Shown here: positions 60,653-64,000 of the stretch, piece after piece
Layout: the number at the start of each line of letters is the position of its first letter
Numbering within the stretch: position 1 is the first letter of the stretch
Assembly: GCA_019115485.1 (NCBI GenBank)
Contig: DXDM01000010.1
Span: 1-64,000, forward strand
Reading direction: 5' to 3'
Origin: Candidatus Barnesiella excrementavium
GTDB lineage: Bacteria; Bacteroidota; Bacteroidia; Bacteroidales; Barnesiellaceae
Length of the DNA stretch: 64,000 nt
Position numbers and translations under genes: made by a program
Notes under the pieces: generated by a model
Databases searched by the model: none
Told to the model about the DNA's origin: nothing
The model's input: the letters and a program-made list of their open reading frames with translations, nothing else

Positions 60653-61846
60653 TTATTTCAACTGTTCGGCCTGGTTGTAGATAGCCTCGAATATGGTCTT
60701 GTCGGCCTCGGTGAGCAAGCGCCCGCGGCGAGCCATCATCTTCTCGGCAATGGCGTAGAACTTGGGCAGTTGTACATCGGTAAATCCGGCCGTACCACCT
60801 TCGCTGAACGAGGCGACGAAGTTGCGGGGGAATCCGGCTCCGTGAATGTTGACCCCCACACCTATCACTGTGGCTGTGTTGAACATGGTGTTGATGCCCG
60901 CCTTGGAATGGTCGCCCATGATGAGACCGCAGAATTGCAGATGCGTGGGCAGGAAACGGCGGGTGGGGTAGTTCCACAACTTGATTTCGCTGTAATCGTT
61001 TTTGAGGTTCGAGGCCACGGCTCCGGCACCCAGATTGCACCATTCACCGATGACGGCGTTGCCCAGGAACCCGTCGTGCGCCTTGTTGGAGAAGCCGAAC
61101 ATCACCACGTTGTTCAACTCACCGCCCACTTTGCAGTAGGGACCCAGTGTGGTGGCTCCGTAAATTTTGGTTCCCATGTTGACATAGGCATGCTCGCAGG
61201 CGGCAAACGGTGCCCGTATGCAGCTGCCCTCCATCACTTCCGAGTCGGCGCCCAGATAGATGGGGCCGTTGGTCACGTTGAAGATGGCGCACTCGGCCTT
61301 GGCTCCGGGCTCGACGAAAATCTTGGAGGTACCGTCGGCGAAACAGGGGTCGCCGATGATGCGGTTCGAGGGGCTGAGCGGCTGGCTGGTACGCCCGCGG
61401 GTGATGAGTTTGAAATCGGCTTCGAGACACTCGCCGTTGAGCAGGAAAATGTCGTAGAGATGTTGGATATACCGAAGTTTGCGGGAGCTTTCGAGGGTGT
61501 GGGCATAGCGGTTCTCCCGGAAATCGGCTTCACTCCCGCGGAAGGCGACGACTGTCTGCTGGTCGATGAGCGCTTCGCCGGGGTTCAGGATATTGACCTG
61601 TCGGGCCAGCTCCTCGTCGGGAATCAGATGACCGGCTATGAAGAGGTTGTCGTCGGTGAAGTGAGCCGGGTATTTCCCGGCCATGTATTCGGGGGTGAGG
61701 TAGGAGTAGTTGCCGGGCAACATGCGTTCCCACTTTTCGCGTATGGTGAGGATACCTATGCGTATGTCGGCAATGGGCCGGGTAAACGCCAGGGGCAGCA
61801 GTTCGAGATGCTGCTGGTTGATGTCGAAGAGAATGATATTTTTCAT
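60653..61846 (-). CDS. GlmU-family protein (sugar nucleotidyltransferase-like with left-handed beta helix)
   Basis: This 397-residue protein starts with a degenerate nucleotidyltransferase-like region (MKNIILFDINQQHLELLPLAFTRPIADIRIGILTIREKWERML). It continues with a hexapeptide-repeat beta helix (IFNVTNGPIYLGADSEVMEGSCIRAPFAACEHAYVNMGTKIYGATTLGPYCKVGG; GVGVNIHGAGFPRNFVASFSEGG). Bacteroidetes carry this family beside true GlmU; it may make a nucleotide-sugar, but the usual GxGTR uridylyl motif is not visible. It is leftward and divergent from the ACP-like gene. Confidence 0.85.
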   Translation of the reverse strand: MKNIILFDINQQHLELLPLAFTRPIADIRIGILTIREKWERMLPGNYSYLTPEYMAGKYPAHFTDDNLFIAGHLIPDEELARQVNILNPGEALIDQQTVVAFRGSEADFRENRYAHTLESSRKLRYIQHLYDIFLLNGECLEADFKLITRGRTSQPLSPSNRIIGDPCFADGTSKIFVEPGAKAECAIFNVTNGPIYLGADSEVMEGSCIRAPFAACEHAYVNMGTKIYGATTLGPYCKVGGELNNVVMFGFSNKAHDGFLGNAVIGEWCNLGAGAVASNLKNDYSEIKLWNYPTRRFLPTHLQFCGLIMGDHSKAGINTMFNTATVIGVGVNIHGAGFPRNFVASFSEGGTAGFTDVQLPKFYAIAEKMMARRGRLLTEADKTIFEAIYNQAEQLK

Positions 61847-61902: not shown

Positions 61903-61981
61903 AATCTGAGGCGGGGTATTGTGCGGCGGGTGGGGGATTGAACAAATGGCGGCGTGTGGTCGTTTATGGAGAAAAAAGTCT

Positions 61982-62227
61982 ATGGAAGAGAATCGTTTCG
62001 TACAGCTGGTTGCGGGTATGTTGTATCGGACAGACCGCGACTCGGTTACGCCGGAAACCCGGTATAAGGGATTGAAAGAGTGGAATTTCTTGTTTGAGGT
62101 GTCGCTGGCGATGATGCTCGAAGAGGAGTATCACGTGGAGGTGACCCCCGAGGATTTTTCGAGTACGGGAACCTTGGACGAACTGTTTCAGCGGGTGTGT
62201 GTTCCCCGTTTGGTCAATAAGGATTAA
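61982..62227 (+). CDS. Acyl-carrier-protein-like protein lacking the phosphopantetheine serine
   Basis: This 81-residue protein has the size and pattern of an acyl carrier protein: DSVTPETRYKGLKEWNFLFEVSLAMMLEEEYHVEVTPEDF, then TGTLDELFQRV. This lines up with the ACP stretch around WDSL, the acidic helix II and the final helix. The residue that should be the phosphopantetheine serine is F36 (WNFL at 34-37), and the preceding Asp is Asn. It therefore cannot carry a prosthetic group in the usual way. I chose the ATG at 61982 since the upstream extension has no similarity. It is 27 bp before the asparagine-synthetase-like gene, so the two are probably co-expressed. The family assignment is by pattern only. 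Confidence 0.72.
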   Translation: MEENRFVQLVAGMLYRTDRDSVTPETRYKGLKEWNFLFEVSLAMMLEEEYHVEVTPEDFSSTGTLDELFQRVCVPRLVNKD

Positions 62228-62254
62228 AAAGACGATGAGGAGGAGTAACAGACT

Positions 62255-63943
62255 ATGAGCGGCTTGTCGGGAATTGTAGGGGAGGTAGAACAGTTGGAAC
62301 AGGTGCTGCGGCGAATGGCCGAGGCGCAGGAGCATCGGGGAGGAGAGAAGCCGGTCGGGTGGGTCTCCTCTTTTGTCGATGCCCGGGTGGGGCTGATGCA
62401 CAACCGCCGGGTGACCATCGAGTCGGCACGGGCCCCGGGTCAGCCGTTTGAAGAGGTCGACACGGGTCTGGTTGTCATGCTCGACGGCGAGATATTTAAC
62501 TACACTGAGGTGCGTGAGCATCTCTCCAATTATTACCGTTTTACGACCGAGGGGGTGTGCGAGGTGGTGGCCAAAGCCTACGACCGCTGGGGCGATAACT
62601 GTTTCGACCGTTTCGAGGGCTATTTTGCAATAGTCATCTACAATCGTTTTTCCGAGGAGTTGCTGCTCTGTCGCGACCGCTTCGGAATCAAGCCGTTGTA
62701 CTACGCCACCCATCGGGGAAACCTCTATTTCGCCTCGGAGGTGCGAGCCCTCTTTGCCGCGGGGCTCAGGCCACTGCTCTCGGCCGAGCGTTGGGCCAGC
62801 TATCTGGCCTATTCGACCTATGGTAGTCCCTACGAGACCTTTTGGGAGGGGGTGCATCAGCTGCCGGCCGGGTTCCTGTTGCACTACAACGGCTATTCGC
62901 TGGTCGAGAGGCGGTGGTATGAATTTGAGAGCCGGGTGAAGGCATGGAGCGAAGAGTCGCCCGAACGTCAGACCGAAGCCTTCCTGGAACAGCTGCACCG
63001 CAGCGTGGGGTACAGCCTTATGGGCGATATGACCAAGGGGCTCTCGTTGGACGGCGGGGTGGAGTCGGCTCTTTTTATCGCGTTGATGAAGGCGGTGGGG
63101 TGCCCCCGGTATTTGAAAAGTTACATGCACTATCGCGGCAAACTGCATCAGAGCAGTGCCCTGTGGGGGGCCGAACTGTTGTCGGAAACTGCGTTGCCGC
63201 TGGAACAGGTGTCCATCACGAAGGCGATGCTGTTGAAAGAGCTCGACTACCTGACCCGCTGGCAGGAGGAGCCGGTCGACGGGGTGGATATGGTGGCCCG
63301 GTCGGCCTTTTTCAGGGTGATGCGCAAGCGGGGGCTTGCCGTGGTCAGCGGCGGTTGGGGGTTGACCCATTTTCTGGGTGATACACCGCTTCCCGGCGAC
63401 CGATACTCGTCGCTGGTGCCGTCGGAACTGCTGTCGGCCGACTTTCGCCAACTGGCCCGAAAACCGCACTACCGGCATCTGTTCAAGTCGGAGAACAACC
63501 AGTTGAAGTTTTGTGACCTTTACTATGAGCGCCTGCCTCACCTGCTGCGTAGTGTAGACAAGATGAGCATGTACTACGGGGTACAGATTAGAAATGCCTT
63601 TCTGAATCACAATCTGATTGAGATAGCCTTTGCCCGGAGCGACGGCTCCCCTTCGGGTCGTAACCGCCGGCAATGGTTTGCCCGGCAGATTGTGGAACCG
63701 CTGCTCCCGGCACAGATACGGCTGGCGCCCGAGGGCGAACCGGGAGAGCCGGAACTGACCCCCGATTTGAAGGCATGGTCCGATGAGGTGGTATTCGACC
63801 TTCGCTACGGTCGAGCCTCGGCCTGGTTCGACCATACACGGTTGGAACAGGAGTGGCAACAGGGCGACGAGGGCCTCTTTGCCGATCCGATGAAGGTGTG
63901 GAAGCTCCTTTCGTTGTGCCTGCAACTGAAAAATCTGCCGTAG
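62255..63943 (+). CDS. Asparagine-synthetase-like protein with degenerate active sites
   Basis: This 562-residue protein has the AsnB layout, a class II glutamine amidotransferase domain (about 1-190) and a synthetase domain (about 225-500). Framework motifs are present (EHRGGEKP, LDGEIFNYTEVREHL, LLCRDRFGIKPLYYA, LYFASEVRALF). The key residues are not: residue 2 is Ser, not Cys (MSGLSGIVG); the ATP loop reads DGGVES at 266-271 instead of SGGxDS; the second loop is SGGWGLTH at 365-372 instead of SGEGADE; and RNAFLNH replaces RVPFLDH. It cannot be an ordinary glutamine-hydrolysing synthetase. The frame is open and full length, so it may be a pseudoenzyme partner of the ACP-like protein. The 57 bp after the stop show no feature. 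Confidence 0.85.
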   Translation: MSGLSGIVGEVEQLEQVLRRMAEAQEHRGGEKPVGWVSSFVDARVGLMHNRRVTIESARAPGQPFEEVDTGLVVMLDGEIFNYTEVREHLSNYYRFTTEGVCEVVAKAYDRWGDNCFDRFEGYFAIVIYNRFSEELLLCRDRFGIKPLYYATHRGNLYFASEVRALFAAGLRPLLSAERWASYLAYSTYGSPYETFWEGVHQLPAGFLLHYNGYSLVERRWYEFESRVKAWSEESPERQTEAFLEQLHRSVGYSLMGDMTKGLSLDGGVESALFIALMKAVGCPRYLKSYMHYRGKLHQSSALWGAELLSETALPLEQVSITKAMLLKELDYLTRWQEEPVDGVDMVARSAFFRVMRKRGLAVVSGGWGLTHFLGDTPLPGDRYSSLVPSELLSADFRQLARKPHYRHLFKSENNQLKFCDLYYERLPHLLRSVDKMSMYYGVQIRNAFLNHNLIEIAFARSDGSPSGRNRRQWFARQIVEPLLPAQIRLAPEGEPGEPELTPDLKAWSDEVVFDLRYGRASAWFDHTRLEQEWQQGDEGLFADPMKVWKLLSLCLQLKNLP

Positions 63944-64000
63944 ACGAGGCTGCTGCCCGGAGGGCTGCTTCGCACCTCTTTGGGAGCATAGCCGTAAAAT

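Follow-up and report, generated by a model that had tools for sequence, protein, structure and literature searches.

Beta-lactam and carbapenam synthetases are relatives of asparagine synthetase B (AsnB) without a working glutaminase; these beta-lactam-type synthetases retain the SGGxDS loop of the ATP-pyrophosphatase site and adenylate a substrate. A competent class II glutamine amidotransferase of the AsnB type carries an N-terminal Cys after Met1, a glutamine pocket (Arg49, Asn74 and Asp98; AsnB residues are numbered here as in E. coli AsnB), the SGGxDS pyrophosphate loop and the SGEGxDE motif on a two-domain fold, Ntn plus synthetase. In human asparagine synthetase (ASNS), the glutamine-binding network consists of Arg48, Val52, Asn74, Gly75, Glu76 and Asp96 (PMC6748925). 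Acyl carrier proteins (ACPs) are small helical bundles in which the Ser of an Asp-Ser-Leu motif takes 4'-phosphopantetheine. In the O-polysaccharide R-group system of Flavobacterium psychrophilum, an ACP gene, wfpD, is found together with wfpC, wfpE and wfpF (PMC6519341).

One ACP-like and one AsnB-like gene lie side by side near the end of the window, which is the whole stretch of 64,000 nucleotides of Candidatus Barnesiella excrementavium DNA that was analysed, from a genome in 60 contigs. The open reading frames place the genes 27 bp apart, as the initial annotation had stated, and the layout is as follows.

60653 to 61846, minus strand: GlmU-like UDP-GlcNAc diphosphorylase/acetyltransferase (TIGR03991), the divergent neighbour; this flank is conserved both in Barnesiella and in its sister family f22
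61982 to 62227, plus strand: ACP-like protein of 81 aa without the Ser (pseudo-ACP); reading frame from ATG 61982 to the stop at 62227, weak PP-binding match, orthologs and predicted ACP helices
62228 to 62254, plus strand: gap of 27 bp with a GGAGG-like sequence ahead of the AsnB-like start
62255 to 63943, plus strand: AsnB-like protein of 562 aa with both active sites degenerate; reading frame from ATG 62255 to the stop at 63943, supported by Pfam, orthologs, tree, AlphaFold model and structural matches

A short gap of about equal length and a purine-rich site precede the second start in all nine Barnesiella orthologs, and the two genes are probably co-translated in this genus. More genes of the set had been envisaged beyond position 64000; none was found on the contig as read to 71095, where the pair is followed by rfbC on the same strand and then by rpsL, rpsG and fusA. 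The rfbC gene also stands 3' of the AsnB gene in genome G068 but not in the f22 genome that was read. Scans for promoters and terminators gave nothing above chance, and TAN7TTTG sites in the window numbered 26 against 19.8 expected, which is not informative. No PADLOC match to an anti-phage defence family was obtained at E 0.01. A minus-strand frame of 653 aa (window 61964-63925) overlies both genes and is probably a shadow ORF.

The PP-binding match of the ACP-like protein is weak (E 0.003, below the Pfam/NCBIfam cut-off). The protein can nevertheless be aligned with ACPs, and helices are predicted at residues 2-12, 36-50, 56-60 and 65-79, with block pLDDT values of 81-93 over residues 1-70 in a fused model described below. 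An alternative start in the upstream TTG or GTG frames was dismissed, as the orthologs align from ATG 61982; this start and an 'EWN[FY]L' segment are common to the nine Barnesiella proteins. On alignment to 2ehs and others, the Asp-Ser-Leu motif of solved ACPs falls on Asn35-Phe36-Leu37, and the site that takes the prosthetic group is thus occupied by Phe:

62087 to 62089, plus strand: codon TTC for Phe36, where ACPs have the Ser that is phosphopantetheinylated, from this alignment and the Ser column of relatives

The residue is Phe in eight Barnesiella species and Tyr in the ninth. Across the clade, a bulky hydrophobic residue (F, Y, I, L, V or M) fills this column in 13 of 13 Ser-less ACPs, and Ser is found in 10 of 10 Ser-bearing relatives. 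The seven residues F, Y, W, I, L, M and V make up 38% of the compared Ser-less proteins; the sequences are related, so the 13 of 13 count is no true test, and it is suggestive of a binding role, for which this position gives the clearest clue.

The AsnB-like protein matches GATase_7 (E 5e-32) and Asn_synthase (E 4.5e-15) in Pfam/NCBIfam. Alignment to canonical AsnBs located three sites of change:

62258 to 62260, plus strand: codon AGC for Ser at the position of the catalytic Cys1
63047 to 63070, plus strand: LDGGVESA in place of the pyrophosphate loop LSGGLDSS
63350 to 63382, plus strand: GGWGLTHFLGD where canonical AsnBs have the SGEGADEVFGG motif of their synthetase site

The changes in full are Cys1 to Ser, Asn74 to Asp, Asp98 to Val, SGGLDS to DGGVES and SGEGADE to GGWGLTH. 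The pocket Arg is kept, and of the residues in the human glutamine network, the window protein differs at the Asn and at the final Asp; Asn74 and Asp98 are altered in all 17 aligned members of the degenerate family. An intact canonical asnB is present elsewhere in the same genome (C22), and a weak Asn_synthase match (21.5 bits) was seen in a 388-aa frame at G000:C5:34717-34953 (L004).

The AsnB fold is predicted to be intact. An AlphaFold model built with 17 sequences gave a pLDDT of 82.8 and a pTM of 0.86, and VIA-align matched it over its whole length to the hydroxyamidotransferase TsnB9 (7YLZ; Z 35.9, rmsd 3.1, 523 residues), E. coli AsnB (1CT9; Z 33.9) and human ASNS (6GQ3; Z 29.5), followed by beta-lactam synthetase (Z 28.5) and carbapenam synthetase (Z 25.2), the beta-lactam/carbapenam class as a whole spanning Z 24.6-28.5. 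TsnB9 is the best structural match; however, identity is 18% and the window protein bears no sign of hydroxyamidotransferase chemistry. Unlike 1CT9 and 6GQ3, it is without the Cys, the glutamine pocket, the pyrophosphate loop and the SGEGxDE motif.

It was considered whether the AsnB-like protein could still bind a nucleotide or carboxylate and catalyze an unusual step, with the carrier using another attachment residue; of this, the initial annotation had proposed a different attachment chemistry. Active homologs without a working glutaminase do exist among the structural matches (the beta-lactam and carbapenam synthetases), the altered loop retains a Gly, the last Ser and a Glu for the metal-binding Asp, and Arg49 is kept in Barnesiella. 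The change of Asp to Glu could still allow metal binding and hence some residual nucleotide binding. The SGGxDS loop that beta-lactam-type synthetases retain is, however, missing from every aligned member of Barnesiella and f22, and both the loop (DGGV, NGNL, NGSL or NGTL) and the residues after GGWGL vary between species. Nor does any Ser replace that of the carrier, where the substitute is always bulky and hydrophobic; Ser41, tried as a substitute site for the prosthetic group, is invariant in Barnesiella but common in active, Ser-bearing relatives too. Altered chemistry is therefore regarded as very unlikely, and its carrier part, a different attachment residue, found no support.

Nine of nine Barnesiella genomes carry the two genes side by side and uninterrupted, with the same flanks, and a strain-specific artefact or frameshift was thereby ruled out. 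The pair also occurs in three genomes of two other families, so that the suggested survey of co-occurrence showed it not to be confined to one strain. All nine Barnesiella ACPs are without the Ser and all nine AsnB-like proteins without the pyrophosphate loop. The claim that both proteins are missing catalytic residues is to this extent well founded, although the Cys remains in four of the nine species.

An order-wide survey of 393 genomes found the AsnB-like family in four genera only, g1 (Barnesiella), g22, g61 and g89. Confinement to one order, which this search suggested, was overturned by a phylum sample in which seven more relatives, all intact AsnBs, came from two other families of the same class. 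The clade of the ACP extends to one further family, f69. In the AsnB tree the seven intact proteins, which served as outgroup, are sister to the degenerate family, the joint clade having a support of 100/100; inside the family, f89 and f61 diverge ahead of the group formed by Barnesiella and f22 (100/99). Further, f22 groups with Barnesiella in an EF-G tree with modest support (83/65).

The AsnBs of f61 and f89 keep the Cys and SGG[IF]DSS and have changed Asn74 to Asp, Glu76 to Asn or Lys, and Asp98 to Glu, Met or His. These positions belong to the glutamine network of human ASNS (PMC6748925); the glutamine pocket is all that these AsnBs have lost. The ACP of both families is already Ser-less. 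Barnesiella and f22 share the loss of the pyrophosphate loop (xGxxES in most), which maps to the ancestor of the two. The Cys is absent from nine of nine f22 genomes and five of nine Barnesiella; the four Barnesiella species with a Cys form a single group in one tree (99/100) and not in another, and one or more losses within the genus are possible. As read from the trees, the carrier site and the glutamine pocket were lost before the ATP site, and the Cys was the last to go. In f61 and f89 a Ser-less ACP already accompanies an AsnB that is only pocket-dead. The two proteins thus did not change jointly, and this stepwise order rules out the joint loss of function proposed for the two genes.

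The initial annotation pointed to amide-forming clusters, in which ACP and AsnB-type genes are known together; such a parentage is not supported by the closest relatives. The closest Ser-bearing ACPs, which are polysaccharide R-group ACPs of equal length and core, mostly adjoin ketoacyl-ACP synthase III-like and SDR genes where the neighbours could be classified (Pfam on seven of these proteins). The arrangement is like that of wfpD, the likeness being one of gene layout and not of sequence comparison. R-group ACPs differ from the window protein in that they carry the Ser and have fatty-acid-type partner genes, neither of which is found in the window pair. The seven intact AsnBs (L167-L173) have a cytidylyltransferase-type gene next to them or close by. 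At two of these loci Pfam confirmed all three of NeuB, UDP-GlcNAc 2-epimerase and cytidylyltransferase, and at a third it confirmed the first and the last of these. These neuB-neuC-neuA-linked AsnBs of other Bacteroidia form the sister clade and have equal length and the same two-domain layout. They differ in that both active sites are complete, that they directly follow the cytidylyltransferase-type gene, mostly in polysaccharide loci, and that no Ser-less ACP was seen beside them. With ACP relatives beside synthase III and SDR genes and intact AsnBs beside neuB-neuC-neuA, both genes look like descendants of polysaccharide loci. The occurrence of L167-L173 in blocks with neuB and neuC-type genes suggests, in its own right, an uncharacterised amidation step in nonulosonate polysaccharides.

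Outside Barnesiella the two genes can be found apart. All nine f22 genomes (9/9) carry the AsnB-like gene, even though both of its active sites are non-canonical, and a search of five genomes of this family turned up no ACP of the clade. In f69 the Ser-less ACP is present in four of four genomes and the only AsnB match is of canonical type; the ACP stands alone there, with neither an AsnB-like nor a glycosyltransferase partner (L108:8384-8614, L109:9328-9600, L110:6744-6974 and L111:8413-8685). One f89 genome (G197) has kept the ACP and a glycosyltransferase-like gene, the AsnB being absent.

The gene row of f61 and f89 begins with the Ser-less ACP, and a third gene separates the ACP from the AsnB gene. 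This gene encodes a GT2-like protein in G265 and G096, as it does after the ACP in G197 (loci L065:8692-9372 (-), L067:8520-9248 (-) and L105:5399-6220 (+)). The aspartates of its DXD region are replaced (RDEE, SDKE) in an alignment with two ordinary GT2s, and the protein is possibly a third pseudoenzyme of the same gene row. In G068 the third gene encodes an unclassified protein of 415 aa (L066:9896-11143 (-)), for which Pfam gave nothing at E 1. In G173 the ACP is followed by a protein of similar appearance, cut by the contig end (L106:1-847 (-)); the assemblies of G173 and G333 break at this locus.

These gene rows bear on whether the pseudo-ACP is an obligatory subunit of the pseudo-AsnB. 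Short-gap adjacency throughout Barnesiella and the shared gene row in f61 and f89 are what such a physical complex would lead one to expect, and the hydrophobic residue in place of Ser suggests a new contact. Against it, the genes occur apart in f22, in f69 and in one f89 genome, which argues against an obligatory two-protein complex, though not within Barnesiella. A model of a read-through fusion of the ACP and AsnB-like proteins gave docking no support: the ACP part was well folded, the linker was of low confidence (near 37), and the pTM was 0.78 as compared with 0.86 for the AsnB-like protein alone, a weak test of docking with few paired rows. An obligatory complex is thus considered unlikely, and of the regulatory or structural complex proposed at the outset there remain a conserved pair and, probably, a non-catalytic role.

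It could also be argued that the pair is a functionless vestige of a lost polysaccharide pathway in slow decay, given that the motifs were lost stepwise, that the ACP has been lost in f22 and the AsnB-like gene in f69 and G197, and that the AsnB-like protein has a higher rate of evolution than its neighbours. Median pairwise dN/dS values (Nei-Gojobori) are about 0.08 for the ACP-like and 0.13 for the AsnB-like gene, as compared with 0.10 for the glmU-like gene and 0.04 for rfbC, these values being approximate since dS is near saturation for most pairs. In the closest, unsaturated pair they are 0.06 (dS 0.18) and 0.09 (dS 0.33) for the ACP-like and AsnB-like genes, respectively. All are well below 1 and indicate that both genes are under purifying selection. 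The reading frames contain no frameshift or internal stop in nine Barnesiella and nine f22 genomes, retention is universal in both families, and the Ser position always holds a bulky hydrophobic residue. Slow decay, like altered chemistry, is accordingly given little credence.

The reading preferred here, at a probability of roughly 0.6, is that the genes encode two pseudoenzymes which derive from surface-polysaccharide synthesis genes and have been kept for a non-catalytic binding role. Catalytic residues are lost, the predicted fold is conserved and selection is purifying, the combination expected of a conserved pseudoenzyme. The AsnB-like protein would no longer make an amide and would serve for binding or as a scaffold; the role of the pseudo-ACP would be that of a protein-interaction module, with a hydrophobic side chain in place of the tethered arm. 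The two proteins may interact with one another or share a partner, the most plausible setting being envelope-sugar metabolism, to which the glmU-like and rfbC neighbours weakly point. More specifically, they may constitute a two-protein non-catalytic module that senses or regulates the synthesis of envelope precursors in Barnesiella and relatives, a pseudo-ACP whose arm has been swapped for a hydrophobic side chain together with a pseudo-amidotransferase of polysaccharide origin; this proposal is tentative and, on balance, doubtful. A limited literature search found nothing relevant on Ser-less ACPs or ACP-AsnB pairs.

The pair offers a natural series for one enzyme family, from intact through pocket-dead to fully degenerate, alongside a carrier whose prosthetic-group site disappeared earlier than the ATP site of the neighbouring protein. 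As such it is well suited to testing how pseudoenzymes persist and what they do. Judging from the Pfam matches, the genes are likely to be annotated as an asparagine synthetase and an acyl carrier protein, and such labels would lead metabolic models of common gut bacteria astray.
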